Shown here: piece by piece, positions 1,401 through 31,349 of the stretch | Numbering within the stretch: the first letter of the stretch is position 1 | Layout: each line of letters starts with the position of its first letter | NCBI GenBank assembly: GCA_027064715.1 | Contig: JAMOPG010000206.1 | Span: forward strand, 1 to 32,828 | Origin: Desulfobacterales bacterium | GTDB lineage: Bacteria > Desulfobacterota > Desulfovibrionia > Desulfovibrionales > Desulfothermaceae | Reading direction: 5' to 3' | Length of the DNA stretch: 32,828 nucleotides | Position numbers and translations under genes: made by a program | The notes under the pieces: generated by a model | Databases searched by the model: none | What the model was told of the DNA's origin: nothing | What the model saw: the letters and a program-made list of their open reading frames with translations, nothing else

Positions 1401-2366
1401 ATGATTAAAGATATTGTAAAAAAAGTGGTGAGAGGTGAATCAGTAGAATCTCAGGAAATAGATTCAATCTTACAACAATGTAAGTGGTATGATATCTTGT
1501 GGGGGGCTAACAAGATACGGGAGACTTTTAAGGGAAATAAAATTTTTGCGTGTTCCATTATAAATGCAAAGTCTGGTCTTTGTTCTGAAGACTGTAAGTT
1601 TTGTGCCCAGTCAAAGTTTCACAATACTGGAGTGAAAGTATATCCTTTGTTAGAAAAAGAGGAGCTTGTAAAAAGGGCGTTAGATTTGGCAGAAAAAGGA
1701 GCAACTCATTTTTCATTTGTAACTAGTGGAAAGAAGCTTTCAAAAAAAGACATTGATATTATTTGTGAAGCTGCACTGGAGATCAAAAATAAAAGTAGTA
1801 TTAAATTGTGTGCATCGTTGGGTCTATTGGATTTAGATTATGCAAGGAATTTAAGGGAAGCAGGAATTACCAGATATCATCACAATTTAGAAACATCTAA
1901 ATCATTTTTCAAAAATATCTGCACCACACATGAGTATGAAGAGGATATTGAAACAATAGAGGTTGCAAAAAAGGCAGGAATGGAAGTTTGTAGTGGGGGG
2001 ATAATGGGGCTTGGAGAAGATTTTTCACACAGGATAGAGCTTGCACTACTTTTAAATGAACTTGAGGTAGATTCAATACCAATAAATTTTTTAAATCCAA
2101 TTAAAGGCACTAAACTTGAAAATATGCCCTTAATCCCACCTATTGAAGCCTTGGTATGTATAGCTCTTTTTAGATTTTTAAATCCAGATAAAAATATTAC
2201 TATTTGTGGTGGGAGAGAGGTGTGTCTTAGAGATATGCAGTCATGGATATTTTTTGCTGGTGCAAATGGAATAATGATTGGAAACTACCTTACTACACAG
2301 GGAAGAGAAATTGATGATGATCTAAAAATGATAAATGATTTGGGACTTGAGATAGTTTATGAATAG
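1401..2366 (+). CDS. bioB: Biotin synthase (radical SAM)
   Basis: Inserts sulfur into dethiobiotin to form biotin, the last step of the pathway, in the cytoplasm. The radical-SAM cluster motif CxxxCxxC is at C61, C65 and C68 (CSEDCKFCAQS). The downstream regions typical of BioB follow: YHHNLET around 154-160, CSGGIMGLGE around 198-207, and a C-terminal segment around ICGGREV and GANGIMIGNYLTT. The length of 321 residues is normal. The ATG has a good AGGAGA ribosome site. It is first in a plus-strand operon and overlaps the next gene by 8 nt. The assignment is secure; regulation is probably through the promoter just upstream. Confidence 0.96.
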   Translation: MIKDIVKKVVRGESVESQEIDSILQQCKWYDILWGANKIRETFKGNKIFACSIINAKSGLCSEDCKFCAQSKFHNTGVKVYPLLEKEELVKRALDLAEKGATHFSFVTSGKKLSKKDIDIICEAALEIKNKSSIKLCASLGLLDLDYARNLREAGITRYHHNLETSKSFFKNICTTHEYEEDIETIEVAKKAGMEVCSGGIMGLGEDFSHRIELALLLNELEVDSIPINFLNPIKGTKLENMPLIPPIEALVCIALFRFLNPDKNITICGGREVCLRDMQSWIFFAGANGIMIGNYLTTQGREIDDDLKMINDLGLEIVYE

Positions 2367-2664
2367 ACATTATAGAGGATACTTTTTTTTTGATCCCAAT
2401 GAAGAGATATTTGAAAAACATTTTCCTGGAATACCAGTTGTGCCTGGTAGTATGATTTTAAGCTATTTTTTAAAAGAGATTCAAAAAATCTTAAACTGTC
2501 TATTACAAGATCTTACTGTTAAGAATTTTAAATTCATAAAGTTTATCTCTCCAGGAGAATATGAGTTTCAAATCAATTTTAAAGAAAATTACATTAGTTG
2601 TAAGCTTTTTGATAATGATAAGATAGTTTCAAAAGGAAAGGTTTTTTATAATTATGGAAAATAG
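2359..2664 (+). CDS. Hotdog-fold 3-hydroxyacyl-ACP dehydratase-like protein (FabZ-like), biotin operon
   Basis: A short protein of 101 residues carrying the FabZ signature HFPGIPVVPG at residues 21-30; H21 aligns with the catalytic histidine. The following helix, where FabZ has EALAQ, reads FLKEIQKIL, so the acidic partner may be the glutamate of that helix. It is shorter than usual FabZ (about 145 residues), with compressed C-terminal strands. It overlaps bioB by 8 nt and the SDR gene by 11 nt, so it is translationally coupled. Lying between bioB and an SDR/ACP/KAS set, it probably dehydrates the 3-hydroxy intermediate during pimeloyl-chain building. The fold call is firm; the exact substrate is inferred from context. 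Confidence 0.75.
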   Translation: MNRHYRGYFFFDPNEEIFEKHFPGIPVVPGSMILSYFLKEIQKILNCLLQDLTVKNFKFIKFISPGEYEFQINFKENYISCKLFDNDKIVSKGKVFYNYGK

Positions 2665-3373
2665 TTATCTAATCATTGGTGCAGGTTGTGATATAGGTGT
2701 TGAATTTATTAAATTATTGTTAAATAGAAAAACAAATTTTATAATTGCAACATATAGATCAGAAGATTCAAAAAAAAGACTTCTTGATTTAATAAAAGAT
2801 ACAGAGGTAAATTTTGATATTGTCCACCTAGACTTTGAAGTTTTGTCTTCACTACAAAATGTTTTAAATGATATTTCATATATAAAATATGTTGTTGACC
2901 TTGCTCACAACAACCTAGAAGAATTGTTTGCATCTTTAAAAGATAAACACATAGTTGACTATTATACAGCAAATATAATCAATAGGGCAATTTTTTTGAA
3001 GTATATAGTTAGAAAGATGTTGACAAAAAGAAAAGGTAGACTTTTGTATTTATCTTCCACAGCAGTTATGTATCCTAACAAAGGACAGAGTCTATATTCA
3101 TCATCAAAATCAGCAGTGGAAAATATTTATAAGAGTATTGGTATTGAGATGGGTAACAGAGGTATAACAAGTGTTATATTGAGATTTGGATATATAAACT
3201 CAGGACGAGCATTGAGTTTTGTGCAGGATAAAAATGATCTTCTACAAGATTTTTTAATTGAACCATCTGAAGTTGCTAAAAAAGTGGATTTCTTTTTGCA
3301 TGATGATGGGAAGTGTTTTAATGCAAATGAAGTGGTTATAGATAGAGGATTTTTTTCTTCAAAGAGATTTTAG
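2654..3373 (+). CDS. SDR-family 3-oxoacyl-ACP reductase-like protein (FabG-like), biotin operon
   Basis: A short-chain dehydrogenase of 239 residues. The N-terminal nucleotide-binding turn reads GAGCDIG (residues 9-15), a variant of GxxxGxG. The catalytic set is visible: Ser134 or Ser135 in YLSST, Tyr148 and Lys152 in YSSSK, and an Asn at 107-110. Sequence and length fit FabG-type ketoreductases, which reduce 3-oxoacyl-ACP with NAD(P)H. It overlaps the dehydratase gene by 11 nt and is followed by an ACP gene, so it most likely works on the dedicated pimeloyl-ACP chain, not in general lipid synthesis. Divergence from housekeeping FabG is suggested by the unusual glycine-rich loop. Confidence 0.78.
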   Translation: MENSYLIIGAGCDIGVEFIKLLLNRKTNFIIATYRSEDSKKRLLDLIKDTEVNFDIVHLDFEVLSSLQNVLNDISYIKYVVDLAHNNLEELFASLKDKHIVDYYTANIINRAIFLKYIVRKMLTKRKGRLLYLSSTAVMYPNKGQSLYSSSKSAVENIYKSIGIEMGNRGITSVILRFGYINSGRALSFVQDKNDLLQDFLIEPSEVAKKVDFFLHDDGKCFNANEVVIDRGFFSSKRF

Positions 3374-3388
3374 GAGGTGAAGTCGATA

Positions 3389-3760
3389 ATGGATATTTTA
3401 GATGTTTTAAAAAAGATTATAGCAGATATAATGGATATTGATGAACAAGAAATAGATAGAGAAACATATCTAATTAGAGACTTAAACATGGAATCTATAG
3501 ACCTTTTAGAGCTCTCTGTTGCAATAAATTCCCAATTTAAGATTGATGTAGAAGACGATAAGGCCTTTTTAAAGGATTTAAGATTTATATTAAAAGAGAT
3601 TGACCATAATACATCTCTTGATAACTATTTATCAAACCAATATCCACATCTAAGTAAATCAAGGATTGATGAGATTTTGGCAGATCTTGAAAATGGACCA
3701 GTGCTAAAACTAAAAGATGTTGAACAATATATAAATTACACTTTACATAGTCATGGATAA
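3389..3760 (+). CDS. Acyl carrier protein with C-terminal extension, biotin operon
   Basis: The protein has the ACP helical pattern, with the phosphopantetheine-bearing serine in the segment LNMESIDLLEL, where MESID replaces the usual ADSLD. The acidic DIDEQEIDRETYLIRDL helix-loop before it is typical. About 40 residues follow the ACP domain, ending in a predicted amphipathic helix; ordinary ACPs have about 78 residues, this one about 123. I chose the ATG at 3389 because AGGAGG (3372-3377) lies 11 nt upstream; a GTG at 3377 would add four residues but overlaps the ribosome site. It overlaps the KAS gene by 8 nt. The inferred role is to carry the growing pimeloyl chain specifically for biotin. 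Confidence 0.8.
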   Translation: MDILDVLKKIIADIMDIDEQEIDRETYLIRDLNMESIDLLELSVAINSQFKIDVEDDKAFLKDLRFILKEIDHNTSLDNYLSNQYPHLSKSRIDEILADLENGPVLKLKDVEQYINYTLHSHG

Positions 3761-4940
3761 TAGAGTTGTTGTCACAGGAATAGGAATCATACTTCCCATT
3801 GGTAAAACAGAACAAGAAGTGATTCATTCAATAAAAAATGATGTGGTCAACTTTCAAAGATCTAGCTTTAGGAAGGATGTAATTGTTAGTCCTGTAGAAG
3901 ATTTTGATTTTAAAGCTTATATAAAAGCATATAAATACTCACGCTATCTGCCAAAAAGCTGGAGACTTACAATCTGTGCTGTGAAAAAGGCCATTGAAGA
4001 TGCAAAGATTTCTCAAAAGATATTGGAGAACTCTTCTCTTTTTGTAGGAATAGGGCCAAATGTGGATGTTTTTGATATGCAAATAGAACAAAAGGCCCTT
4101 GGAATTTTGAGTATCCTCCCAAATACTCCCAGTTTTTGTATATCAAATCTATTTAGCATTCATGGAGAAAATCTCACAATCTCCACTGCATGTTCTAGTT
4201 CTCTTCAAAGTATTGGAGAGGGATTTTTAAGAATTAAAAAGGGAGATACAAAGGTGGCCCTATGTGGTGGTGGTGATAGTAGATTGTCTAATTTGGGTAT
4301 TTCACTTTATTATAATGCTAGGGTGCTGAAATTAATAGATGAATCACAAGATGTAAAAAATAGCTATGCCCCTTTTGATAAGAAAAATATGGGGTTTGTG
4401 CCAGGAGAAGGGGGGGCATTTTTAGTCTTAGAAGAACTATCTCATGCAAAAAAAAGGGGAGCAAAGATATATGGTGAAATTATAGGATATTCATCATCAA
4501 TGGATGGTCTAAATCCAACAGCCCCTGATACATCTGCCAAATATCCTACAAAATGTATAGAGAATGCATTGGAAAAAGCCAATATTGATCCAAATGAGAT
4601 AGATGCAATATTTGCTCATGGCACAGGAACTAAGTTAAATGATATAATGGAAATAAAACTAATAAAAAATCTTTTTGTAAATAAAAATCCTTATATTACA
4701 GCATTAAAATCTTGGATAGGACACCTTGCATCAGGATGTGGTGCTGCAGAGATGGCAATTGGTATATTTTGTCTTAAAAAGAATATTATACCAAAAATAA
4801 GAAATTTGAAAGATCCAAGAGATGACTTTATTCCTTTTGTAATACATAATACTTACAGACAAGTAAATATTGCAATTTTTCAATCATTTGGCTTTGGTGG
4901 TCAAAATGCTTGTATAATATTTAAGAACTCAGTAGATTGA
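3753..4940 (+). CDS. Beta-ketoacyl-ACP synthase (KAS I/II, FabF-like), biotin operon
   Basis: A 395-residue thiolase-fold condensing enzyme with the full FabB/FabF triad: Cys147 in TACSSS, His289 in AHGTGT and His324 in KSWIGH. The C-terminal glycine-rich FGFGGQNA loop is present. It extends an acyl chain with malonyl-ACP. Its place between an ACP gene and bioF implies that it builds a dicarboxylic pimeloyl chain. It is not a BioZ-type KAS III, whose catalytic set is Cys-His-Asn. It overlaps both neighbours by a few bases. How the carboxylated primer is accepted cannot be read from the sequence. Confidence 0.85.
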   Translation: MDNRVVVTGIGIILPIGKTEQEVIHSIKNDVVNFQRSSFRKDVIVSPVEDFDFKAYIKAYKYSRYLPKSWRLTICAVKKAIEDAKISQKILENSSLFVGIGPNVDVFDMQIEQKALGILSILPNTPSFCISNLFSIHGENLTISTACSSSLQSIGEGFLRIKKGDTKVALCGGGDSRLSNLGISLYYNARVLKLIDESQDVKNSYAPFDKKNMGFVPGEGGAFLVLEELSHAKKRGAKIYGEIIGYSSSMDGLNPTAPDTSAKYPTKCIENALEKANIDPNEIDAIFAHGTGTKLNDIMEIKLIKNLFVNKNPYITALKSWIGHLASGCGAAEMAIGIFCLKKNIIPKIRNLKDPRDDFIPFVIHNTYRQVNIAIFQSFGFGGQNACIIFKNSVD

Positions 4941-5356
4941 TTTCAATTTTTATGAAATTTCAACATATTATATCCATATCAAAAGATGAAATAGAGTTAA
5001 AGGTTACTTATACGTCTAATGATTTGTGGAAAATCATTGAATCTGTATTCCATGCAGGTGGGCTACATTTAAGGTATATTTTTCATTTTCAAAAACATAT
5101 TTTTTTGGTAAAGGTCTCTGAATTTGTTTTTTTGAATTATTTAAACTTGTCGTCAGGCATAGTAAAGTCAAATCTTGTTGCAAAATCTTTATCTGGTGCT
5201 GTTTACAAGGGCTGTATTTTATCAGATGATGGGTTGGTTTTACAGACAGAGTTTTTGTTGGGTGTAAAAGATTATGACCATGAATTTAGAAAGGAATCTC
5301 TTAAACCGTACTATGAGAGGCTTTTTAGATGTTTGATGAATACAAAAAGAAAATAG
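4937..5356 (+). CDS. Unrecognised small protein, possibly a second hotdog-fold subunit, biotin operon
   Basis: 139 residues with no motif I can name with confidence. The second half shows alternating hydrophobic strands (about residues 50-110: KVSEFVFL, then SGIVKSNLVAK, VYKGCIL, GLVLQTEFLLG), like the C-terminal sheet of a hotdog dehydratase or thioesterase. The HFPxxP signature is absent, but a FHAGG segment sits near residue 37. It may form a heterodimer with the short FabZ-like protein or act as a thioesterase or dehydratase on pimeloyl-ACP. The TTG at 4937 overlaps the KAS stop; an ATG at 4952 is an alternative start. It overlaps bioF by 28 nt. Membership in the biotin pathway rests only on operon position. 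Confidence 0.6.
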   Translation: MISIFMKFQHIISISKDEIELKVTYTSNDLWKIIESVFHAGGLHLRYIFHFQKHIFLVKVSEFVFLNYLNLSSGIVKSNLVAKSLSGAVYKGCILSDDGLVLQTEFLLGVKDYDHEFRKESLKPYYERLFRCLMNTKRK

Positions 5357-6480
5357 AGATACAAAAAAGAGAATTTTTGTATCGTTGTCCTCATAAAATA
5401 GCTACCAGAAAAGGTAAATATATAGATGCAGGGGGGAAAAGGTTAATAAATTTTTCTGCTAATGACTACCTAGGGCTCTCTTCAGACAGAAAGATAAAAG
5501 AGATAATAGTGAGGAATTTTGAAAAATATCCTGCGTCGTCATCATCGTCTCGCCTTGTATGTGGAAATTATAATGTTGTTTTAGATGCAGAGAAAAAGGT
5601 GGCAGAATATTTTGGATATGAGGACTGTATCTTTTTTCAAACTGGATTTCAGGCAAATCTGGCTTTAATGTCTACGATTTTTTTAGATAACCACAAGGTT
5701 TTTATAGATAAACATGTTCATGCTAGTACGATATCTGGTTTAAAACTTGGGGGTGTACGTTTTAATACTTTTAAACACAATGACTTAACACATCTTAAAA
5801 AAAGGCTTAATTCTAATGAAAATAAAAATAGTTGGGTGGTGACAGAATCCATATTTTCAATGGATGGAGATTTGTTAGATGTAGAGAAGCTTTTTCAGCT
5901 TAAAGATAATTATAATTTTAAATTGATTGTGGATGAAGCACACGCTGTAGGAATTTTAGGGAAAAAAGGCGTGGGACTTGCACAAGGTGTTGCTGATATA
6001 GCTGTAGGGACCTTTACTAAGGCCTTTGGGTTTTTTGGAGCATTTGTATTGCTTCCAAAGATTATCAAAGAATATTTGTTCAATTTTTCTATACCTCTCA
6101 TATATTCAACAGCTCTGCCCCCTGCCCATAGTGGATGTATATTAGATCTTATAGATATAGTTGAAGATCTTGAGGATAGAAGATGGTATGTTCAGGAGTT
6201 ATCTCAGCTTGCAAGACAAAAGTTAGAAAAAGCAGGAATAAAATATACAGGTTCAGCCCATATAATAACAATACCAATTGGTGAAGAAGAGTTAGGTAAA
6301 AACATATCTGAGGAATTGATTAGCAGGGGATATATGGTTTTTTATTCAAGATATCCAACTGTTCCATTAGGTAAATCACTACTCAGGATCAGTCTTTGTT
6401 ATTTTCACACAGAATCAGATATAATTAAATTCATTGAGTTGCTTAAAGATATACTTTATAAATATGGAATCTTGAAATGA
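5329..6480 (+). CDS. bioF: 8-amino-7-oxononanoate synthase
   Basis: A PLP enzyme of the alpha-oxoamine synthase family that condenses pimeloyl-ACP or pimeloyl-CoA with L-alanine. The PLP lysine is Lys231 in TFTKAFG, and Asp202 and His205 lie in VDEAHAVG. The substrate-loop segment SANDYLGLSS (43-52) and the SSSSRLVCGN stretch are typical of BioF. The length of 383 residues is normal. A GAGAGG ribosome site lies 8 nt before the ATG, inside the end of the previous gene. It overlaps bioD by 4 nt. The upstream ACP/KAS/SDR/dehydratase genes presumably supply its acyl substrate. Confidence 0.95.
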   Translation: MFDEYKKKIEIQKREFLYRCPHKIATRKGKYIDAGGKRLINFSANDYLGLSSDRKIKEIIVRNFEKYPASSSSSRLVCGNYNVVLDAEKKVAEYFGYEDCIFFQTGFQANLALMSTIFLDNHKVFIDKHVHASTISGLKLGGVRFNTFKHNDLTHLKKRLNSNENKNSWVVTESIFSMDGDLLDVEKLFQLKDNYNFKLIVDEAHAVGILGKKGVGLAQGVADIAVGTFTKAFGFFGAFVLLPKIIKEYLFNFSIPLIYSTALPPAHSGCILDLIDIVEDLEDRRWYVQELSQLARQKLEKAGIKYTGSAHIITIPIGEEELGKNISEELISRGYMVFYSRYPTVPLGKSLLRISLCYFHTESDIIKFIELLKDILYKYGILK

Positions 6481-7163
6481 AAAATATATTTATTACAGCA
6501 ACAGATACTGGGGTTGGAAAGACGATAGTTTCTCTTTTGATTATGAACTATCTTTACAAAAACTACAATAGACCAGTTTATTTAAAAATTTTTCAAACTG
6601 GTTGTAGTAGCATCTTTGATGCAGATTCAGATGCCTATTTTGTTTATAAAAATATTCTACCAGAGGTGAAAAAAGAATTTCTAAAGGATAAGATTTGTTA
6701 TTTATTTAAAAATCCAAAAGCACCATATTTTGCTGCAAGAGATGAAAATTGCGAGATTGATATATCTTATGTTTTTAATTGGATAGAAGAAAAGATATCT
6801 ATCTATCATCCTGTTGTTTTGGAAGGAGCAGGAGGGCTGTTTGTACCTATTACAAAGAATTTTTTAATGATAGATTTAATAGAAGAATTAGATGTACACG
6901 TAATATTAGTGGCAAGGCCATATCTTGGAACAATAAACCATACCTTGCTTTCTTTAGAAGCCTTATATAGTAGAGATATACCAGTAAAATGTGTGGTGTT
7001 TTCAAATCAATCTAGAGAGGATGTCCCATTAGATATGGTGCAGGAGAATATAGAGGCAGTGGAATTTTTTGGTAAAGTTCCAACCTTTTTTGTTGATTAT
7101 ATTGGAAATCCAACAGGTGATAAAGAAAATTATTTAAATTTAATAGAGAAATTGTTGAGCTAA
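6477..7163 (+). CDS. bioD: Dethiobiotin synthetase
   Basis: An ATP-dependent carboxylase that closes the ureido ring of 7,8-diaminopelargonate to give dethiobiotin. The N-terminal P-loop reads TATDTGVGKT (residues 7-16), characteristic of BioD, and the VLEGAGGLFVPI motif lies near residue 115. 228 residues is a normal length. Last gene of the biotin operon, overlapping bioF by 4 nt. bioA, whose product feeds BioD, is not in the window, so the aminotransferase must be encoded elsewhere or replaced. Confidence 0.95.
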   Translation: MKNIFITATDTGVGKTIVSLLIMNYLYKNYNRPVYLKIFQTGCSSIFDADSDAYFVYKNILPEVKKEFLKDKICYLFKNPKAPYFAARDENCEIDISYVFNWIEEKISIYHPVVLEGAGGLFVPITKNFLMIDLIEELDVHVILVARPYLGTINHTLLSLEALYSRDIPVKCVVFSNQSREDVPLDMVQENIEAVEFFGKVPTFFVDYIGNPTGDKENYLNLIEKLLS

Positions 7164-7226: not shown

Positions 7227-7640
7227 CTATTTTGATGCATTAGTATAAGCTTCTTTTATTCTATCTATCATATAATTTATCTCTTTTTCTGAAAAATCAT
7301 CTAGATCAAAACAATATCCATCTTCCCCTAACAGACCACCAGGGATCAAATCCCCTTTTTCCTCAGGATCACTAATCATATCTCCATAAAAGCAGATGGA
7401 CAACCACCTATTTTCTGGATCATCATCAATCACATCCACCATCACAAAGAGCTTTCTTGTTGTCTGGTTTTTATGTCTTGCCCTTAAAGAATAACTGATA
7501 CCCTGCCTTTCCACAAAGTCTATTTCTACATCTTCAAAACCCAAAATAAGTTCTTTTAATTTCAGAAAACCCTCTTTTGCTGGACAATCCTTCCAATTTG
7601 CTAAAAAAACATCTATCCTTTTTACAATATCACCTGCCAT
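7227..7640 (-). CDS. Conserved-looking protein of unknown function, end of mannosylglycerate operon
   Basis: 137 residues, soluble, acidic, with no transmembrane segment or signal peptide and no motif I recognise. Visible features are a central strand-rich part (SYSLRARHKN, then KLFVMVDVIDDDP, RWLSICFYGDMI) and an acidic C-terminal helix with EKEINYMIDRIKEAY. The ATG at 7640 is preferred because GGGGAGG lies just upstream; a GTG at 7661 in the same frame has no ribosome site and would read through it. It follows the GDP-mannose gene by 58 nt without a clear terminator, so it is probably the last gene of that operon. No function is inferred. Confidence 0.7.
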   Translation of the reverse strand: MAGDIVKRIDVFLANWKDCPAKEGFLKLKELILGFEDVEIDFVERQGISYSLRARHKNQTTRKLFVMVDVIDDDPENRWLSICFYGDMISDPEEKGDLIPGGLLGEDGYCFDLDDFSEKEINYMIDRIKEAYTNASK

Positions 7641-7698
7641 ATTCCTCCCCTTTTCACTCACTTAAACAGCCCATAGCTGCTAAGTTTAAAAAAAATTA

Positions 7699-9111
7699 TT
7701 ATTCCGTTCTTCCATACACATCTTCAATCCTAACAATATCGTCTTCCCCAAGGTAAGAACCTACCTGTACTTCTATAAATATTAAGGGTATCTTCCCTGG
7801 ATTTTCTATTCTATGTATACATCCCACAGGTAGATATACATACTGATTTTCTGACAAAAGGATCTTTTCATTTTCCTTTGTAACAATTCCTGTTCCTTGT
7901 ACAACAACCCAGTGTTCTGATCTATGAAAATGCTTTTGTAGTGACAAAACTGCCCCTGGATTTACCACAATCCTTTTTATCTGATATCTCTTACCCATTT
8001 CCAATGTCTCATATGACCCCCATGGTCTATATATCTTTTTGTGAAAAAATGCCTCATCTCTATTTTGTTCCTTTAGTCTCTCAACAAGTTTTTTTACTTC
8101 CTGGACTCTATCTTTTTTGGATACCAATATTGCATCTTTTGTAACAACTACCACTTCATCTTCTAGACCAACAGTACCAACTAAAATGTCCTTTGCATCA
8201 ACATAACATCCTTTAGAATCTATTGCTACAACACTTCCTTTAAATACATTCTGACTTTCATCCTTATCTCCCACTTCCCATAAAGAATACCATGAACCAA
8301 CATCGCTCCATCTGCAATTAATAGGTATTACAACTGCATTTTTTGTCTTTTCCATTACAGCATAGTCTATTGAATCCGCTGGACACTTACTAAATTCTTC
8401 TTCATTTAATATAATTTCTTTATCTTTTCTTTTGCTTTTTTCCCAGGACAGTCTTGCCTTTTCATATATATCTGGGGCATATTCTTGGAGCTCAGATAAA
8501 TAAGAATCAGCCCTGAACAAAAACATTCCACTATTCCAATAATATTCTCCACTACTTACATATTCTTCAGCAGTCTGGCTGTCTGGCTTTTCCACAAATC
8601 TTTCCACCTCATAAACACCTTCAGATAACTTCATACCCTTCTTTATATAACCATAACCAGTCTCTGGCTTATTAGGAACTATTCCAAAGGTAATAAGTTT
8701 TCCTTTTTTTGCTTCCCTTATTGCATAATCTAAGGCCTTTTTGAACTCATCAAGACCTTCTAAATAATGATCAGCAGGAAGTACCAAAAGTATGGGAACC
8801 TTAAAGTTTTGCTGTGCTTCAAAAGCAGCTACTGCAATTGCTGGTGCAGTATTTTTAGGCTCAGGTTCAATTATCAGCTTATCAATCCCTTTTCCAACTT
8901 CAAAGACCTGCGATATCACAAAAAATTTATGATCCTTATTTGTCAAAAAGTAACCTTCAGCGTGTATATCTAACTCGTCTAATCTCAAAACTGTATCCTG
9001 AAGCATAGTGTTATCATCTATCAAGGGCATAAATTGTTTTGGATACAATTTTCTTGATTTTGGCCACAACCTTGTTCCTGAACCTCCACACAATATAACT
9101 GGTATAACCAT
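7699..9111 (-). CDS. manC: Mannose-1-phosphate guanylyltransferase / mannose-6-phosphate isomerase (bifunctional)
   Basis: 470 residues in two parts. The N-terminal nucleotidyltransferase has the signature GGSGTRLWPKSR (residues 9-20) followed by YPKQF, then FVEKPD near 171 and YYWNSGMFLF. The C-terminal cupin domain (from about 355) contains GSYETLEMG, the metal-site stretch QKHFHRSEHW and IHRIENPG, as in type II phosphomannose isomerases (ManC/AlgA/XanB). It makes mannose-6-phosphate from fructose-6-phosphate and GDP-mannose from mannose-1-phosphate. GDP-mannose is the donor for both mannosylglycerate routes encoded here, so its place in the operon makes sense; a phosphomannomutase is not in the window. 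It sits 10 nt after the glycerate kinase gene. Confidence 0.92.
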   Translation of the reverse strand: MVIPVILCGGSGTRLWPKSRKLYPKQFMPLIDDNTMLQDTVLRLDELDIHAEGYFLTNKDHKFFVISQVFEVGKGIDKLIIEPEPKNTAPAIAVAAFEAQQNFKVPILLVLPADHYLEGLDEFKKALDYAIREAKKGKLITFGIVPNKPETGYGYIKKGMKLSEGVYEVERFVEKPDSQTAEEYVSSGEYYWNSGMFLFRADSYLSELQEYAPDIYEKARLSWEKSKRKDKEIILNEEEFSKCPADSIDYAVMEKTKNAVVIPINCRWSDVGSWYSLWEVGDKDESQNVFKGSVVAIDSKGCYVDAKDILVGTVGLEDEVVVVTKDAILVSKKDRVQEVKKLVERLKEQNRDEAFFHKKIYRPWGSYETLEMGKRYQIKRIVVNPGAVLSLQKHFHRSEHWVVVQGTGIVTKENEKILLSENQYVYLPVGCIHRIENPGKIPLIFIEVQVGSYLGEDDIVRIEDVYGRTE

Positions 9112-9121
9112 ACTAACCTCC

Positions 9122-10270
9122 TTATGCTCTTTTTATACAATCAACAAAAAAGGCCACTACCCTCTGTGTTGCATCCTTTAGATATTCCCTTACATTTTTC
9201 ATTGCAGTATCTAATGAAACAGGCCCAGGAATGATGGTGAATATACCATGAATCCCTATCTGTCTTGCCTTTTTAAAATCCATGTTAACATCAATGGATC
9301 CACACAATGCAATGCAAGGGACGTTATATTTGTTTGCTGTCTCAGCAACACCATATGGGCCTTTTCCAAAAAAGATCTGATTATCTAGCTTCCCCTCGCC
9401 TGTGATAACTAATGAAGCCCCTTTGATCTTTTCATCTAAAGAAGTAAGCTCTTTCATAACTTCAATGCCTTTTTTCAATTTTCCCCCTAAAAATGCATAG
9501 AGCCCTGCTCCAAGACCACCAGCTGCACCACCACCTGGTATATTTGTTATGTCCATCCCTCTTTTTCTTTTTATAATTTGAGCCAGATTTTTAAGTCCCT
9601 TTTCTAAGATCTCTATCATCTTAAGTGTTGCACCCTTTTGAGGCCCATATACACGTGTGGCACCATTTTCCCCCAAGAGTGGATTGTCCACATCACACAC
9701 AACCACAATCTCACACTCTTTTATCCTGGGATCCAAGCCTGAAAAATCAATATCTTGAATCTTTATCAAATTTCCACCGCATGGATATAACTCTTTTCCA
9801 TTTTTGTCTAAAAATCTAATACCTAAAGCGGATGCAACGCCAATTCCACCATCATTTGTGGCACTGCCTCCAATTCCAATGATTATCTTTTTTACCCCTA
9901 GATCTAAGGCATACTTTATGAGCTCTCCTGTACCAAGTGTTGTGGTCTTTGTTGGATCTAGTTCATGTTTTTTTAAAAGGGCCAAGCCACTGGCCCTGGC
10001 CATCTCTATTGCTGCTATTTTTTCTTTTTCTACAATGCATAACTCAGAAACTATCTCTCTTCCTAAAGGATCTTTGACTTTTACCTTTTGAATTGAACCT
10101 TCCATTATATCCCTTAACACCTCTAACAGTCCATCTCCCCCATCTGAAAAAGGAACTTTAACTGTATTAATATCGGGATACAATTCACTTACTGCCTGTG
10201 CCATTACATCTGCTGCTTGTTTTGCAGAAATACTTCCCTTAAATGCATTAGGCGCAACTACTATTTTCAT
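9122..10270 (-). CDS. Glycerate kinase (GlxK/GarK family)
   Basis: 382 residues, matching the GlxK/GarK family along its length. It starts MKIVVAPNAFKGSISA, followed by PFSDGGDG, the glycine-rich GIGGSATNDGG motif near 136-146, GPQKGAT, PGGGAAGGLGAGL and VITGEGKLDNQ. Characterised bacterial members phosphorylate D-glycerate, usually at position 2. It overlaps the mannosylglycerate synthase gene by 23 nt. D-glycerate is the acceptor of that synthase, so the kinase could set or drain the glycerate pool, or recycle glycerate released when the solute is broken down. Product position (2-phospho or 3-phospho) cannot be read from the sequence and matters, because the two-step route uses 3-phosphoglycerate. 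Confidence 0.92.
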   Translation of the reverse strand: MKIVVAPNAFKGSISAKQAADVMAQAVSELYPDINTVKVPFSDGGDGLLEVLRDIMEGSIQKVKVKDPLGREIVSELCIVEKEKIAAIEMARASGLALLKKHELDPTKTTTLGTGELIKYALDLGVKKIIIGIGGSATNDGGIGVASALGIRFLDKNGKELYPCGGNLIKIQDIDFSGLDPRIKECEIVVVCDVDNPLLGENGATRVYGPQKGATLKMIEILEKGLKNLAQIIKRKRGMDITNIPGGGAAGGLGAGLYAFLGGKLKKGIEVMKELTSLDEKIKGASLVITGEGKLDNQIFFGKGPYGVAETANKYNVPCIALCGSIDVNMDFKKARQIGIHGIFTIIPGPVSLDTAMKNVREYLKDATQRVVAFFVDCIKRA

Positions 10271-11489
10271 TCTTCTCTTCCTTTTTTGCTTTTTTAATCT
10301 TATGTTTTGCAGAGTAATTCATATATCTATCTATCATGGAATAAAGATATCTCATTGCAAAATAATATCCCCGAAGGGCTATTGTAGTGGTATAACAAAG
10401 GACCCTACCTACCCATAATTTAAATAAGATCTCCTGCCAATCTTCATTGTTTATATCAAAGTGATCAAGCAAAATTAAATAAGCTTCTCTCCAAGTATGT
10501 TCATCTAAGAAACTAAATGATGGCGCCTTCTTATTTGCATACACTCCATCCCTTATTCTCCTTGGAAACACAGATAAAAGATCTTCCATTCCTGGAGTCC
10601 AATTTTCCATTAAAAGAGTCAGAGAACCTTCAATATCAAAGCCTATTTTCTCAAATACATCCTGAGGTACCTCATGGGGATGTTCTGCCCTGTGTATTAT
10701 CCCTCCTTTGCAGAGAAAGGATCCCTCCATCTCATTAACCTTTGGTATTAACTCTAAAGAGTGATCCCTTAAGGACTGAATTGTATCAAAACATTCCACT
10801 AACATGGTCTTAAGATCTGTGAGTTTTCCATATAGCTTGTGCAATTTCCCTTCAGATATATAGGTCTCAAGCATTGGATAGCAATATTTTACTGAATAAA
10901 ATGTATACATTGTATCAATTCCCCAGTCACTTCTATTCCTAACCTCTTCTTGCTGTAAAAACCTTTCCACAACTTCCCTTTTAAAAAGGAGTTCTCCCCC
11001 TAAGGGTTGTTCAATCCAAGGAAGCTCAGATGTTGGCCATAAAAGTGCAAAACCTGTCTTCGTTATCATCCAGGTAATCATCCCATCAGTTGAACATCTG
11101 GGGAAATAGTGTCTCACCACAGGATATCCCAATTCAGCTCCTTCTAGCAGTTTTGAGATCCAATTTGGGCCAAAGGTGGTAATATCAGAGTCAAAAAAAA
11201 GGATCTCATTATGATCAGTCTCTTCAAGAAAATATTTCAAGGCTGTATTCATCCCATCCCCTTTCCCAGGTCTTTTGTTTCCTATTCTCTCCTGTAAAAT
11301 CAAGTTAATGTCTTTGTTAGTCTCCATTTTTAGTTGAGGGATGTTTTGCTCTAAGCTTCTGTAGGTCTCTTCCTTTTCTACCCCAACACACAACACCTCA
11401 TCCACCTTTGGATGCTGTGCAGCAATTTTCACATTATTTAAGACAACTTGAGGATTTTCTTTTTTAAATGGAAATACTACCAGACACAT
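10248..11489 (-). CDS. mgs: Mannosylglycerate synthase (one-step, GT78)
   Basis: Transfers mannose from GDP-mannose directly to D-glycerate to give the compatible solute mannosylglycerate. The sequence closely resembles Rhodothermus marinus MGS as I know it: start CLVVFPFK, RPGKGDGMNTALKYFLEET (74-92), the metal-binding D100-S-D102 in FFDSDITTFGP, then VRHYFPR, MITWMITKTGFALLWP, SWIEQPLGGEL-like and RSDWGIDT motifs, and LHKLYG. The 413-residue length is slightly longer because of a lysine-rich tail. GGAGG lies 4 nt before the ATG. It is first in the minus-strand operon and diverges from the two-step genes across a 161-bp gap. Confidence 0.93.
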   Translation of the reverse strand: MCLVVFPFKKENPQVVLNNVKIAAQHPKVDEVLCVGVEKEETYRSLEQNIPQLKMETNKDINLILQERIGNKRPGKGDGMNTALKYFLEETDHNEILFFDSDITTFGPNWISKLLEGAELGYPVVRHYFPRCSTDGMITWMITKTGFALLWPTSELPWIEQPLGGELLFKREVVERFLQQEEVRNRSDWGIDTMYTFYSVKYCYPMLETYISEGKLHKLYGKLTDLKTMLVECFDTIQSLRDHSLELIPKVNEMEGSFLCKGGIIHRAEHPHEVPQDVFEKIGFDIEGSLTLLMENWTPGMEDLLSVFPRRIRDGVYANKKAPSFSFLDEHTWREAYLILLDHFDINNEDWQEILFKLWVGRVLCYTTTIALRGYYFAMRYLYSMIDRYMNYSAKHKIKKAKKEEKNENSSCA

Positions 11490-11650
11490 AATCCCTCCTT
11501 TTTATTTGATTTAGATTTTTTAATTTATTCTCAGGATAATTCATATTCAACAAAAATCAAGTAAATAGTTATTTGCATAAAGTTTTTTTTTTAGATATAT
11601 ATTCTTTAGCTGATTCCTTAACAAAGTATAATTTTTGGGAGGTAGATTAG
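11490..11650. promoter_or_regulatory. Divergent promoter region of the mannosylglycerate locus
   Basis: A 161-bp AT-rich gap separates the two divergent mannosylglycerate operons. On the plus strand TATAAT lies at 11627-11632, but it is very close to the GGGAGGT ribosome site (11637-11643) and has only a poor -35 (TTTAGC), so it is uncertain. On the minus strand TTGATT, 16 bp, TATCCT is a possible promoter centred near 11545. Shared osmotic or heat control is an inference from the arrangement. Confidence 0.35.
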
Positions 11651-12835
11651 ATGAGAATAGAGGGATTTAGATATACAGAAAGGCTGGGGGCAGTTTTACT
11701 CAGGGATGTACAAAAAATAATAGAGCTTGATTCTGGAATGGATTCTGATCAAGAGGAGGAAGCAAGGGGGGTATATAAGATAAATGAAAGTATTATACAT
11801 GATATCCAAAAAGAAATGGTTATCGTTATTCCAACCAAAAACGAAAAATTAAAACTTTTTGAAAATTGCATAAGTGGTGTTCCCAATGCATGTCTCAAAA
11901 TAATAATATCTAACAGTGATATAACTCCCTTGAACAGATTTGAGCTAGAAAAAGAGACATTGCAGCAGTTTTGTGACTTCACCAGAAGACGGGCTATTAT
12001 CATACATCAAAAAGACCCCATAATCAGCAGGGCTCTTCAGGAAGCAGGATATACAGATATATTAGATGAGGAGGGGATTGTGAGAGATGGAAAGGCTGAA
12101 GGCATGGTAATTGGTATATTGCTCACCAAATTCTTGGGGAAAAAATATATAGGTTTTATTGATGCAGACAACTACTTTCCAGGAACTGTGCTTGAATATG
12201 CAAGGGCATATGCAGCAGGTTTTTATTTATCTAAATATGAACAGTGTATGGTAAGGATATTGTGGAGGTATAAACCCAAGATACACGAACAAGGGCTTTA
12301 TTTTAAAAGATGGGGAAGGGTATCAGAGATCACAAATAGGTGCCTAAACTCTCTTATTTCTTTTGTAAGTGGATTTGAGACAGATGTAATAAAGACAGGA
12401 AATGCAGGGGAACATGCAATGGCGATTTCTCTTGCAGAGTCCATACCCTATGCATCTGGATATGCAATTGAACCTCAGGAACTTTTGTCTTTGTTTGAGG
12501 AATATGGAGATATACCACACCTGGGAAACCATAGAGATGGTTTTAAAGGAATAGAGATATTACAGATTGAGACTAGAAATCCACATTTACACGAAAATAA
12601 AGGACAGGAACACATAAATCAGATGTTGCTGGCCAGCCTTGGAGCCATCTATCACAGCGATGTATGTTGTGAAGAGACAAAAAATCTCATATTAGAAGAA
12701 CTAAATAGACAGGGGCTTTTAAGGTTGGGAGAAGAACCCCCTAGACCGAAATTGATTAAAGCACCAAAAGAGATCGATTTTGAGGCCTTTGCAAATATTG
12801 TGGGAGAAAATCTAGACAAATATATAGTACAATAA
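11651..12835 (+). CDS. mpgS: Mannosyl-3-phosphoglycerate synthase (GT55)
   Basis: Joins GDP-mannose and 3-phosphoglycerate, the first step of the two-step mannosylglycerate route. The 394-residue protein has the family's features: start MRIEGFRYTERLGAV, LDSG near 26, VIVIPTKNE (57-65), IIISNSD, the metal-binding D171-A-D173-N in GFIDADNYFPG, the NAGEHAMA stretch, and a HEN-KGQEHI segment near the C terminus. The ribosome site GGGAGGT lies 7 nt before the ATG. The HAD phosphatase gene follows after 3 nt, which fixes the pathway. This route is known in hyperthermophilic archaea and Thermus; together with GT78 on the other strand the locus holds both pathways. Confidence 0.94.
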   Translation: MRIEGFRYTERLGAVLLRDVQKIIELDSGMDSDQEEEARGVYKINESIIHDIQKEMVIVIPTKNEKLKLFENCISGVPNACLKIIISNSDITPLNRFELEKETLQQFCDFTRRRAIIIHQKDPIISRALQEAGYTDILDEEGIVRDGKAEGMVIGILLTKFLGKKYIGFIDADNYFPGTVLEYARAYAAGFYLSKYEQCMVRILWRYKPKIHEQGLYFKRWGRVSEITNRCLNSLISFVSGFETDVIKTGNAGEHAMAISLAESIPYASGYAIEPQELLSLFEEYGDIPHLGNHRDGFKGIEILQIETRNPHLHENKGQEHINQMLLASLGAIYHSDVCCEETKNLILEELNRQGLLRLGEEPPRPKLIKAPKEIDFEAFANIVGENLDKYIVQ

Positions 12836-12838
12836 GAT

Positions 12839-13690
12839 ATGAACAAAAAATTTCTTATTTTCACGGACATTGATGGCACATTGATTGATTTGACTACCTT
12901 TGATCCAGGTCCAGTTACTGATGTACTTCCTAAATTGCAGAAAAAAGATATACCAATTGTACTTTGTTCTGCAAAAACTGCAATGGAACAGATAAAACTA
13001 AGGGAATTTCTGAACATAAAAGATCCATTTATAGTTGAAAATGGTGGAGGAATTTATATCCCTAAAGGATATTTTGAAGATAAAATAATAAAAGAGATAT
13101 CTCCCCAAATTGAGTATGAAGATCATTATATTAAGATCTGTGTTGGAACATCTTATAAATATATAAGAAAGATATTGGAGATCATAAAAAAAGAAGAAAA
13201 AATTTACTTTATAGGGTTTGGTGATTTAGATGTAAATGAGATTTCTAGATTAACAGGACTGGATAAAAAAGATAGTGAACTTGCAAAAAAAAGGGAGTTT
13301 GATGAAACTATTGTAGAAATAGATAAAATATCAGTGGATATTTTAAAAACAAGATTAAAAGAATTTGGACTAAAACTTATACATGGAGGAAGGTTTTATC
13401 ATGTAATTAGTAAAGATGCATCAAAAGGCAAAAGTGTAATAATTTTAAAAAATCTGTTTAAAAACAAATATAAAACAGAGCTAGTCACTATAGGTATAGG
13501 AGATAGTGAAAACGATTATGATATGTTAAAACATGTGGATTATCCTTATGTGGTAGAAAAAAAATCAGGGGGATGGATTAATTTTGATATTTTTGATCTG
13601 AAAAAAATAAAAGGCATAGGACCCCATGGTTGGGTTAATGTTATAAAGGACGTTGGAATATTAGAGGGTCAAGCCCCCAATTTCCTATGA
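12839..13690 (+). CDS. mpgP: Mannosyl-3-phosphoglycerate phosphatase (HAD family)
   Basis: Removes the phosphate from mannosyl-3-phosphoglycerate to give mannosylglycerate. HAD motif I is TDIDGTL with nucleophile D10 and D12; motif II serine is in VLCSAKT (about 41-47); the lysine near 200 is in SKDASKGKSV; motif IV is GIGDSENDYDML. This is the Cof/MPGP-type layout with a cap between motifs II and III. 283 residues is a usual length. It starts 3 nt after mpgS, so it is surely co-translated. A strong hairpin follows at 13720-13757. Confidence 0.93.
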   Translation: MNKKFLIFTDIDGTLIDLTTFDPGPVTDVLPKLQKKDIPIVLCSAKTAMEQIKLREFLNIKDPFIVENGGGIYIPKGYFEDKIIKEISPQIEYEDHYIKICVGTSYKYIRKILEIIKKEEKIYFIGFGDLDVNEISRLTGLDKKDSELAKKREFDETIVEIDKISVDILKTRLKEFGLKLIHGGRFYHVISKDASKGKSVIILKNLFKNKYKTELVTIGIGDSENDYDMLKHVDYPYVVEKKSGGWINFDIFDLKKIKGIGPHGWVNVIKDVGILEGQAPNFL

Positions 13691-27527: not shown

Positions 27528-29309
27528 ATGTACACTAGATTTATTAAAAGTATTTTCTACCTTCTTTTACTTTTATCTTTATCTAGTTGTGGACATTCAA
27601 ACAACTCATGTGTCTCTTGCCATAAAGATGTCTCTTCACCATCCTCCACTCATAGAGAGTGTATTTCATGCCATAAGGGAAATCCCTATGTATCCAATAA
27701 GGAGTTATCCCATAGTTCAATGCTTAAAAACAACCCTTCGTGTCCTGAAAACTGGGATAAATCATGTGGGCAGTGCCACTATTATGAGTTAATGCGCGTG
27801 AAATCGTCTCTTATGTATACAAATATAGGCATGATCAAAAAAATCCAAAGATCGTGGCAGGGAGACACAGAAAATTTGTATTCAGTGTCAAACAGTACCT
27901 CTTTATTTGATGAACATGGAAATCCATTGTTTATTAACCCCATAAGTAAGTTAAATAATTTGGGAGCTATCTTATATAGAAAATTTTGTTTTAAGTGTCA
28001 TATTGGATACGAAGAAAAAGATGTTCGATTATCTGGATGTGCTTTATGTCATTTTAAATATGATAAAGATAAGGGATATTCTCATAAGCTAGTTCCTATA
28101 CCATCTCAAGATGTATGTCTTATTTGTCATAATAGAAGTGGTAGAATTGGACTTAGTTATACTGGATTTTATGAGACCAATAATTTAGTTCCAACTGATA
28201 AATATGGACCTAAATATATGTTAAGTGGTGGAAGATCCCTTGTTAAAATAAAAAAAGATATCCACTTTGAAAAAGGTATGGAGTGTGTAGATTGCCATAC
28301 TTCAAGGGATATTATGGGAGATGGATATTCATATTTTGATAAATCAGATCAAGTAGAGATATCATGTAGTGATTGTCATGGTTCATATAAAAAATATCCA
28401 ACGACTAAAGAAGTTATTGGAGACGGAAAACTTCCCATTATTGAATCAAAAAATTATCATATAAAAATAATGCAAGGCTTTAATATGGTCCTAACAAAAA
28501 AGAATAGGATGTATTCCAATGTATTTTATAAAGACAATAAAATATTTGTCATTGGTAAAAGATCAGGGAAATTGTTTGAAGCACCTATTATTACTAATAC
28601 TAAATATCACAATATCTATGGGCATGATAGACTAAAATGTATTGTATGTCATTCACGTGTAGTTCCACAATGTTTTGGATGTCATACATATTATTATAGA
28701 GATATTTTAGGTTATGATGGAATAAAAAAAGAGATTTCTTATGGTAGGTTTTTAGAAAAAGAGGATTTTAGGCGCGGCTATCCATTTTATTTGGGGGTTG
28801 ATAGAAATAATAAAGTAACTACCTTGACACCTGGATGTCAGACATTTGTTTATATTAAGGCGAAAAATAAATGGATAAAGCAGGGCTATGTTGCAAGATA
28901 CAAGGGGTCAAGGAGGTTGAGATTTGCCCCATTGTTTTCCCATAACATAAAAAAAGAGTCCATATCTTGTATAGACTGCCATTTAAGTTTTGAGATGCTC
29001 GGTTTTGGGAAAGGTGTATTTTTAGAGGATGGAAGGTTTGAGACAATATATTTAGGCAATAAACGATATCCCTTGGAAGGAATACTCTCACTAAAAAAAA
29101 ATAAGGATCTGATCCCTCAACAGGCATTGACCTCAGGGGCAAGACCATTTAATACTCAAGAGATAAAAAGGATATTAAAGGTAAGTCAGTGTTTAGTATG
29201 TCATGGAAAAGACGATGAAATTTATAAAAAACCCCTTGATTATAATAAGCTGCCTTTTTGTCTTAAGTCCTATGAAAGGTTATACAGAGATTTATCCAAA
29301 GATAGATAA
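27528..29309 (+). CDS. Dodecahaem c-type cytochrome lipoprotein
   Basis: 593 residues. The N terminus has a positively charged start, a leucine run and a lipobox ending LSSC (Cys21), so the protein is probably a lipid-anchored periplasmic or outer-membrane cytochrome. I count 12 CXXCH haem-binding motifs: CVSCH (28), CISCH, CGQCH, CFKCH, CALCH, CLICH, CVDCH, CSDCH, CIVCH, CFGCH, CIDCH and CLVCH near the end. Five lie in the first third and two pairs are closely spaced. Additional histidines could be distal ligands. It is the first gene of an operon with a Rieske protein and cytochrome b, so it probably takes electrons from that complex. Its last 107 nt overlap the next gene. I do not recognise a named family. 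Confidence 0.88.
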   Translation: MYTRFIKSIFYLLLLLSLSSCGHSNNSCVSCHKDVSSPSSTHRECISCHKGNPYVSNKELSHSSMLKNNPSCPENWDKSCGQCHYYELMRVKSSLMYTNIGMIKKIQRSWQGDTENLYSVSNSTSLFDEHGNPLFINPISKLNNLGAILYRKFCFKCHIGYEEKDVRLSGCALCHFKYDKDKGYSHKLVPIPSQDVCLICHNRSGRIGLSYTGFYETNNLVPTDKYGPKYMLSGGRSLVKIKKDIHFEKGMECVDCHTSRDIMGDGYSYFDKSDQVEISCSDCHGSYKKYPTTKEVIGDGKLPIIESKNYHIKIMQGFNMVLTKKNRMYSNVFYKDNKIFVIGKRSGKLFEAPIITNTKYHNIYGHDRLKCIVCHSRVVPQCFGCHTYYYRDILGYDGIKKEISYGRFLEKEDFRRGYPFYLGVDRNNKVTTLTPGCQTFVYIKAKNKWIKQGYVARYKGSRRLRFAPLFSHNIKKESISCIDCHLSFEMLGFGKGVFLEDGRFETIYLGNKRYPLEGILSLKKNKDLIPQQALTSGARPFNTQEIKRILKVSQCLVCHGKDDEIYKKPLDYNKLPFCLKSYERLYRDLSKDR

Positions 29310-30351
29310 ATCTTGTGTATCATGCCATGTTGGTTATGAAAAAATGTTGTCTTGCAATATGGCGACAAGAAAAAAAGAAAAAGAATTTGTCAAAGAGGTG
29401 TTTTCAAAATATGATAAGCATTTTTTTAAAAAAAATTGCAACTCATGTCATTTGAAAGATTGTAAAGATTGCCATAAAGTAAAAGATAATCAAGTAAAAA
29501 AGCCAGGTGTATATGATTGTCTTAAATGTCACAATGGGTATTTTATTGGTATAGAGTATATTGGACTGAGTTTAAGAGAACCATCAATAAGATATAAAAG
29601 GGGCATTTTATTTAAAAATAAATATTATATGCTTATGAAAGAAGATGTTCATTTTACTGCAGGGCTAACATGTGCTGATTGTCATAATATGAAGAGTTTG
29701 TTAAAAAAAAATGTAGGCCCTAAAATATGTATTGATTGTCACAAAATAGATAAAAATATCATTGAACATAGTATTAATGCACATTTAGAAAAATTAGAAT
29801 GTTATACATGTCATAGTGCATGGATAAATCAAGAATATGGAACCTATGTTATTAGAAATTATAGTGAAAATGATTTATATAGAGAGAGATTGTGGGATAG
29901 ATATTCAGAAGAATATCAAAGATCAACATTTTTTGTAAAAAGGGATCTTTTTCCAATAGGATTAAATAAAAAAGGTAAACTATCTCCAATAAGGCCCCAA
30001 TTTATTTTTATTTATTCTGATTTGAAGAAAGATATACATAATAAAATAATATCAAAAACATGGAAAGCAATATTTCCACACACAATCCAAAAGGGAACTC
30101 CAACATGTAATAATTGTCATATGAATAATGGGAGATTTTTGCAATCATGTGATAATGATAACAGTGTGTTATCTTTTTTTGATACAAGTTCTAATTTTAA
30201 AGAAAGATTTAATTTTTTGTGTTATAAAGGTCAGTCTTTGTGGAATGGTCGGTTTTATACAAAAAAAGATGTTTTTAAAGCAAAAAAAGATCCAAAATTT
30301 AAAAAATTGTATATCAAAAAATGGGATTTAATATTAAAAGACGTAAATTAA
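29203..30351 (+). CDS. Octahaem c-type cytochrome
   Basis: 382 residues with an N-terminal signal or anchor (basic start, then LIIISCLFVLSPM). Eight CXXCH motifs are visible: CVSCH (38), CNSCH, CKDCH, CLKCH, CADCH, CIDCH, CYTCH and CNNCH. Seven lie in the first 210 residues, the last near 305, so the C-terminal third is haem-poor. The start may be the ATG at 29203 or the one at 29215, which gives a more usual signal peptide (MKFIKN). Either way the gene overlaps the previous one by about 100 nt in another frame, and the Rieske gene by 31 nt. It probably works as an electron carrier in the same bc-type complex. No clear named family. Confidence 0.87.
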   Translation: MEKTMKFIKNPLIIISCLFVLSPMKGYTEIYPKIDKSCVSCHVGYEKMLSCNMATRKKEKEFVKEVFSKYDKHFFKKNCNSCHLKDCKDCHKVKDNQVKKPGVYDCLKCHNGYFIGIEYIGLSLREPSIRYKRGILFKNKYYMLMKEDVHFTAGLTCADCHNMKSLLKKNVGPKICIDCHKIDKNIIEHSINAHLEKLECYTCHSAWINQEYGTYVIRNYSENDLYRERLWDRYSEEYQRSTFFVKRDLFPIGLNKKGKLSPIRPQFIFIYSDLKKDIHNKIISKTWKAIFPHTIQKGTPTCNNCHMNNGRFLQSCDNDNSVLSFFDTSSNFKERFNFLCYKGQSLWNGRFYTKKDVFKAKKDPKFKKLYIKKWDLILKDVN

Positions 30352-30719
30352 TAAAAAAGATTTTTGGCATATTAGCTACAGTTGCATCTTTCTTTTTTTT
30401 ATACAGATTTTTGTCCTTTAAGAGACACAAAAAAATAAAAAAGATTGTATTGCAAAAAAGACTCATATCTCCAAATAGTGCAGTTGTGTATCCAGAAAAA
30501 AGATTGGCTATTTTAAATATAAAAGGTCGACTATTTGCCCTAGATCTTACCTGCACACATCTTGGGTGTACAGTAAATATAAATCAAAAAGAGATAGTTT
30601 GTCCCTGCCATGGTAGTGTTTTTTCTCATAGCGGAAAGCTCATAAAAGGCCCTGCTAAAAAAGATTTGAGGAGTTATAAGGTGATAGAACATGGAAATTT
30701 TTTTGTCATAGAGGTATGA
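30321..30719 (+). CDS. Rieske 2Fe-2S protein of a bc-type complex
   Basis: 132 residues. The N terminus carries a twin-arginine-like KRRKLIKK followed by a hydrophobic anchor (about 14-32), typical of Rieske subunits exported folded by Tat. The cluster-binding boxes are complete: CTHLGC (C78, H80, C83) and CPCHGS (C94, C96, H97), with the disulfide cysteines C83 and C96. It is short, as in b6f-type Rieske proteins. It transfers electrons from quinol at the outer site to the c-type partner. It is followed by cytochrome b after 6 nt. Confidence 0.93.
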   Translation: MGFNIKRRKLIKKIFGILATVASFFFLYRFLSFKRHKKIKKIVLQKRLISPNSAVVYPEKRLAILNIKGRLFALDLTCTHLGCTVNINQKEIVCPCHGSVFSHSGKLIKGPAKKDLRSYKVIEHGNFFVIEV

Positions 30720-30725
30720 TCTTTT

Positions 30726-31349
30726 ATGGGACTTATTAAGGACTTTATTGAGCATCTATTTCCCAAAAAGATAAGACGAGATAATTTAAAGATAACCTAT
30801 ACCCTTTGTCTTGGTGGCCTCTGTTTTTTATGTTTTTTTGTACTTTTAATCTCAGGGATCTTGCTTACATTTTATTATGAGCCTGGAGATAGAGGATATA
30901 ATTCTATTTTGCTGCTAGAGTCTTCAGTATTTGGTGGAATTTTTTTAAGAAGTATCCATAGATATGCCTCAGACTCCCTTTTGATATTTTTAATTTTACA
31001 TATAATAAGGGTTATTTTTCAGGGTGCGTACCTTCCTCCAAGAAGTACCAACTGGTTAACTGGGTGTGTTTTGTTTTTGTTGTGCTTTTTTGAGGCATAT
31101 TTGGGATACGTCTTGGTTCAAGATCAGGTATCCATATGGGCATTAAAAACTGGAATGGAACTTTTAAATTTTACTTTTCTTACAAGAATTATATATAATT
31201 TGATTGTTGTTGATGGAGTATTTGGGGAACTTACCTTTACTAGAATTTATATTTTACATATCATTATTATTCCATTTTTGATACTTATTCTTTGTTCTAT
31301 GCATATTTATAAAATAAGAAAACAAAAAGGAATACTTCCATATATATGA
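30726..31349 (+). CDS. Cytochrome b6-type subunit
   Basis: 207 residues with four membrane helices, the length of the N-terminal cytochrome b part in split (b6/subunit IV) complexes. Haem b ligands are H78 and H92 in the second helix and H178 and H193 in the fourth; the second pair is 15 apart, the b6-type spacing, against 14 in mitochondrial cytochrome b. Cys28 in LCLGG aligns with the YCLGG cysteine of cytochrome b6 that binds the extra haem c(n)/c(i). RSIHR and LHIIRV motifs match b6. It oxidises menaquinol and moves electrons across the inner membrane. It overlaps the next gene by 4 nt. Confidence 0.92.
   Translation: MGLIKDFIEHLFPKKIRRDNLKITYTLCLGGLCFLCFFVLLISGILLTFYYEPGDRGYNSILLLESSVFGGIFLRSIHRYASDSLLIFLILHIIRVIFQGAYLPPRSTNWLTGCVLFLLCFFEAYLGYVLVQDQVSIWALKTGMELLNFTFLTRIIYNLIVVDGVFGELTFTRIYILHIIIIPFLILILCSMHIYKIRKQKGILPYI

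Follow-up and report, generated by a model that had tools for sequence, protein, structure and literature searches.

The window analysed here, which is the whole of contig C206 (32,828 bp) of a 2.1-Mb, 93% complete draft genome (G000), carries two divergent operons encoding five enzymes. On the minus strand, a GT78 mannosylglycerate synthase (10248-11489), belonging to the one-step route from GDP-mannose and D-glycerate to mannosylglycerate (MG), is followed by a class II glycerate kinase (9122-10270) and by ManC (7699-9111), a mannose-1-phosphate guanylyltransferase/mannose-6-phosphate isomerase assigned to donor supply; on the plus strand, a GT55 mannosyl-3-phosphoglycerate synthase (11651-12835) and a HAD-IIB mannosyl-3-phosphoglycerate phosphatase (12839-13690) represent the first and second steps of the two-step route. 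The glycerate kinase and GT78 are probably co-translated, because the start of the kinase gene overlaps the end of the GT78 gene by 23 bp; ManC begins 10 bp after the kinase gene, and the phosphatase gene lies 3 bp downstream of the GT55 gene. The intergenic region between the operons (11490-11650) is presumed to hold both promoters, and no regulator gene is present in the cluster. An earlier note on this DNA had placed a GT78 synthase and a GDP-mannose enzyme on the minus strand and a GT55 synthase and a HAD phosphatase on the plus strand, and the family and structure matches given below bear out all four assignments; its minus-strand list omitted the glycerate kinase, however, the component that tells most about the locus. 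The span it proposed, 7227-13690, does enclose the five enzymes but also takes in a 144-aa ORF (7227-7661) that probably lies outside the module, since this ORF matches no family and the clusters of the other genomes have no counterpart of it next to them.

Characterised enzymes align with both synthases and with the phosphatase along almost the entire protein. For GT78, both Pfam domains are matched in full and far above cut-off (MGS_GT, PF21969, E = 2.4e-99, positions 2-239 of 239; MGS_C, PF21967, E = 2.2e-35, positions 2-110 of 110), and the protein aligns with the solved Rhodothermus marinus enzyme (PDB: 2bo4) over residues 1-393 (E = 1.2e-145). Of the positions checked against R. marinus, 13 are kept (K9, E11, Q66, K76, D100, D102, T139, L163, W189, D192, H217, Y220, and M229) and R218 is replaced by K; those other than Q66 and W189 presumably matter for function as well. 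The DxD metal site corresponds to D100-S-D102, and Q66 and W189 are the base-binding (guanine-contacting) residues of the R. marinus enzyme (PMC2581804). GT55 passes the equivalog model TIGR02460 (500.2 bits against a cut-off of 351.2), matches the Thermus thermophilus (PDB: 2wvk; E = 2.1e-126) and Pyrococcus horikoshii (PDB: 2zu7; E = 5e-116) enzymes, and keeps the DAD motif (D167-A-D169) together with His309 and His311 (T. thermophilus numbering). The phosphatase scores above the cut-off of its family model (TIGR01486, 244 versus 165) but just below that of the equivalog model (TIGR02461, 223 versus 244), with a match to PDB 3ztw at E = 7.5e-33; the fact that it neighbours GT55 in each of the dual-route genomes supports its role. 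ManC is recovered by TIGR01479 (675 versus a cut-off of 373), PF00483, and PF01050, and is found in the same place, 73-77% identical, in two sister genomes. The kinase belongs to the GlxK/GarK type (PF02595, E = 1.9e-141; TIGR00045, 460 versus a cut-off of 168) and aligns with PDB 3cwc over residues 1-373 (E = 1.3e-96); its scores stay under the cut-offs of the two specific models, NF007401 and NF007668, and its product may be either 2- or 3-phosphoglycerate. From these matches, we infer that both synthases would make MG in the cell.

The earlier note had also stressed a shared 161-bp control region. The gap between the operons is indeed 161 bp in the window, but neither its length nor its sequence is conserved: the three sisters have spacers of 255, 259, and 261 bp, and an alignment of the four species reveals little in common beyond the ribosome-binding sites, with no conserved regulatory motif seen. 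A promoter scan of the region gives about as many matches as chance would (29 against an expectation of 27.5), the spacer has no Rfam match, and the arms of its best inverted repeat (15 nt, 87%) are separated by 41 nt. The divergent arrangement is thus what is conserved, and the case for emphasizing a single shared control region is weak.

Distribution and origin of the cluster

The host genus is Desulfothermus (Thermodesulfobacteriota, class Desulfovibrionia, Desulfovibrionales), a heat-loving sulfate-reducing bacterium; the label "desulfobacterial" used before fits the sulfate-reducer lineage but is only loosely apt, as the genus sits in class Desulfovibrionia. Four genomes of the genus are known, G000 and three sisters (G001-G003), the latter being the two MAGs titled "Desulfohalobiaceae" and Desulfothermus okinawensis JCM 13304 that hold the nearest GT78 sequences in named genomes (80%, 79%, and 70% identical, respectively). 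All four share the divergent order ManC-kinase-GT78 // GT55-phosphatase, which rules out contamination as the source of the cluster, allows chance to be dismissed, since five genes are retained in order, and upholds the claim that both MG routes are encoded side by side and divergently in a sulfate-reducer lineage. A genome search found a single copy each of GT78 and GT55 in G000.

Outside the genus, neither GT78 nor GT55 was found in any of the 116 other relatives searched, and no further full-length GT78 was found in ∼395 genomes of the phylum. Weak PF21969 matches occur in 48 other phylum genomes (19-42 bits, compared with 334 here); the one that was inspected is better fitted by a glucosyl-3-phosphoglycerate synthase model, and these matches were not counted as GT78. 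The same ∼395 genomes hold one other GT55, in G380 (L063:881-6499), where it adjoins a sodium:solute symporter and a GH38 mannosidase, a set that possibly serves the uptake or turnover of MG. The only other GT78 relatives found are in two genomes titled Sumerlaeota (L014) and Elusimicrobia (L016), which a genome search places in one small phylum. There are thus six dual-route genomes, four from Desulfothermus and two from this other phylum, all of them drafts (43-95% complete).

Between the window and G003, dN/dS is lowest in GT55 (0.03) and rises through GT78 (0.08), ManC (0.12), and the kinase (0.13) to the phosphatase (0.14), all rough values because synonymous sites are near saturation; the equally rough range across the five genes, 0.03-0.17, indicates purifying selection on all of them and argues that neither route is decaying. 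Apparently degenerate genes in D. okinawensis were set aside as assembly error, as the frameshifts strike every gene of the region, neighbours included. The species relationships obtained from GT78, GT55, and the myo-inositol-1-phosphate synthase (MIPS) described below agree in placing the window outside G002 and G003, which is the expectation for descent within the genus. It should be noted, as a separate observation, that the phosphatase is 52-54% identical between species whose GT55 is 83-88% identical, that is, one step of the two-step route evolves fast.

In an eight-sequence tree, the Desulfothermus GT55 groups with that of T. thermophilus (51-52% identical, support 0.96), and the Desulfothermus GT78 sequences are 56-60% identical to the R. 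marinus enzyme (56% for the window copy) compared with 47-52% to those of the other phylum. Together with the absence of both genes from relatives, these groupings suggest that the two synthase genes may have been acquired before the genus diversified. A search for GT78 among 72,556 plasmids gave no match, and a search of viral contigs found no relative.

Glycerate kinases and the two acceptor pools

The two synthases share a donor but differ in acceptor, which is D-glycerate for GT78 and 3-phosphoglycerate for GT55 (PMC1224877). We consider it somewhat better than even (probability about 0.6) that the locus is a compact MG module in which two synthetic routes share their donor supply and the kinase bridges their acceptors. 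ManC would supply GDP-mannose to both routes; GT55 would join it to 3-phosphoglycerate, after which the HAD phosphatase would free MG, and GT78 would join it directly to D-glycerate. The kinase, by converting D-glycerate to phosphoglycerate, would link the two acceptor pools, and glycerate that is not used by GT78, or that is freed by MG breakdown, would re-enter central metabolism and become available to the GT55 route. The MG made in this way may serve against heat or salt.

The strongest evidence that the kinase functions in the module is that unrelated kinases stand beside GT78 in two dual-route lineages. A PF02595 kinase is found at the cluster in four of four genus genomes but in none of four family relatives and neither of the two genomes from the other phylum. 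A further PF02595 copy in G000 lies on a ManC-kinase fragment of ∼3 kb (G000:C34:1-3060) that is 93-96% identical to sister G002 and most likely reflects strain mixture in the draft. L014 and L016 likewise carry GT78, GT55, and the phosphatase side by side, in convergent rather than divergent orientation, and a P-loop kinase of 278/279 aa lies directly upstream of GT78; its best PDB match in L016 is a D-glycerate 3-kinase (7xpc, GLYK, E = 1.3e-31), with a second D-glycerate 3-kinase, 6ckg, at E = 1.2e-17. The GT78 proteins of L014 and L016 are 73% identical and the two genomes are related, so the kinase association counts as two independent events. As judged from family membership, then, two unrelated families of predicted glycerate kinase are placed independently beside GT78 in dual-route clusters, which suggests that the kinase is a working part that may join the acceptor pools of the two routes. 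The sister solute glucosylglycerate offers a documented case of a glycerate kinase gene next to genes for synthesis and breakdown (PMC7178133).

This same recurrence weighs against a simple redundancy of the R. marinus kind, in which one route would answer to salt and one to heat and the kinase would be a passenger for general glycerate use. R. marinus does have both routes, and a title cited in PMC1224877 (Borges et al. 2004) speaks of specialised roles, but a kinase that is at the cluster in four species and absent from family relatives, and whose place is taken by an unrelated kinase in another phylum, makes a passenger improbable.

A counter-point to the module reading is that the kinase would compete with GT78 for D-glycerate and so fits simple one-step synthesis poorly. 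Removal of glycerate suits breakdown better than synthesis, and the pathways might therefore be opposed, with GT55 and the phosphatase making MG irreversibly and the minus-strand operon recovering it through reverse GT78 (MG + GDP → GDP-mannose + D-glycerate), pulled by the kinase and with ManC helping mannose back to central metabolism. No MG hydrolase (PF22422) was found in the six dual-route draft genomes, in a search that does match Thermus composti, and no GH38 mannosidase was found in the four Desulfothermus drafts; a weak partial GH38 match occurs in G121. The reverse reaction is, by our own rough estimate, energetically conceivable at osmolyte concentrations of MG. Glucosylglycerate clusters offer an analogy, as they place a reversible phosphorylase beside glycerate kinase, synthase, and phosphatase, and that phosphorylase is the only known possible glucosylglycerate sink in many such organisms (PMC7178133). 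By this analogy, GT78 and the kinase could form a reversible salvage arm facing the synthetic GT55 arm across the divergent promoter, a make-and-recycle osmolyte switch that we regard as doubtful. Against salvage stand the characterisation of R. marinus GT78 as a synthase (PMC1224877), the presence of GT78 without GT55 in plants (PMC3342304), the need for ManC in synthesis too, and the scope of the glycosidase search, which covered PF22422 and GH38 in genomes that are 43-95% complete. Given the characterised synthase activity of GT78 and the draft state of the genomes, we hold opposed pathways to be unlikely.

Sequence cannot fix the donor or the acceptor of GT78, which might then make another solute (glucosylglycerate, for instance, or the mannoside of a different small acid), in which case the two operons would differ in product. 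At position 218, the arginine of R. marinus is replaced by K in Desulfothermus and by A or S in the proteins from the other phylum. The 56% identity to the R. marinus enzyme, the retention of the 13 active-site positions including Q66 and W189, and the presence of ManC within the GT78 operon all speak against a different product, to which we give little credence.

Known systems and other genes of the window

Both enzyme families are already known, as is the occurrence of both routes in one organism: the dual MG system of R. marinus (GT78 MgS plus GT55 MpgS and MpgP) uses the same two families as found here. R. marinus belongs to another phylum, however, whereas Desulfothermus, a sulfate-reducer lineage, has a single divergent module that also includes glycerate kinase and ManC. 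The mpgS-mpgP systems of Thermus and Pyrococcus, which like the plus-strand operon combine GT55 with a HAD phosphatase, are to our knowledge single-route. Glucosylglycerate clusters (GpgS, GpgP, phosphorylase, and glycerate kinase; PMC7178133) likewise contain a two-step synthase, a phosphatase, a kinase, and a third enzyme acting on a glycoside and D-glycerate, but they rely on a GH13_18 phosphorylase and a GT81 synthase instead of the GDP-mannose-dependent GT78 and GT55 of Desulfothermus. As of 2012, R. marinus was the only bacterial GT78 entry (PMC3342304). In the literature searched, outside which lay most subscription papers and a 2014 review of MG evolution, no paper was found that connects MG synthesis to Desulfothermus or to glycerate kinase; within that scope, neither the lineage nor the compact module nor the recurrent kinase appears to have been described, in agreement with the earlier note, which knew of no description of this arrangement in such a genome.

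The question of why an organism should keep two routes to one solute has so far centred on R. marinus. With a module found throughout a genus, and a separately built version that uses an unrelated kinase, the question becomes testable and takes a specific form: whether the kinase balances acceptors, or whether one synthase is the missing recycling enzyme in genomes where no hydrolase is seen. Thermophilic homologs of GT78 and GT55 are also of practical use, since MG is sold to stabilise proteins.

In the three sisters, the GT55-phosphatase operon is followed by a gene for MIPS (among them L017:7044-8147 and L018:12745-13869), 110-119 bp downstream in the two that are cleanly assembled. These genes were found with PF01658; PF07994 missed true MIPS genes. 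In the window's genome, MIPS is on another contig (G000:C136; L079:7444-9895), where it adjoins a bifunctional CTP:inositol-1-phosphate cytidylyltransferase/di-myo-inositol-phosphate synthase that matches PDB 4mnd (E = 4.2e-54), and the species therefore probably has the capacity to make di-myo-inositol phosphate as well. Di-myo-inositol phosphate is a heat-related solute, and the predicted pathway is consistent with the MG module supplying a stress solute.

Some further genes may be mentioned on their own account. In G003, a gene for a small heat-shock protein (Hsp20; L018:5929-6378) adjoins ManC. Elsewhere in the window, inspection by eye shows a biotin operon (1401-7163) in which bioB, bioF, and bioD enclose genes for a dehydratase-like protein, a short-chain reductase, an acyl carrier protein, and a ketoacyl synthase, suggesting in-house pimeloyl synthesis by dedicated fatty-acid-synthesis genes. 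At the far end of the contig lies a multiheme cytochrome operon (27528-32520), the first gene of which resembles the selenite/tellurite-reduction cytochrome ExtM (646 bits, below the cut-off of 800) and is followed, again as judged by eye, by genes for Rieske and cytochrome b-like proteins.
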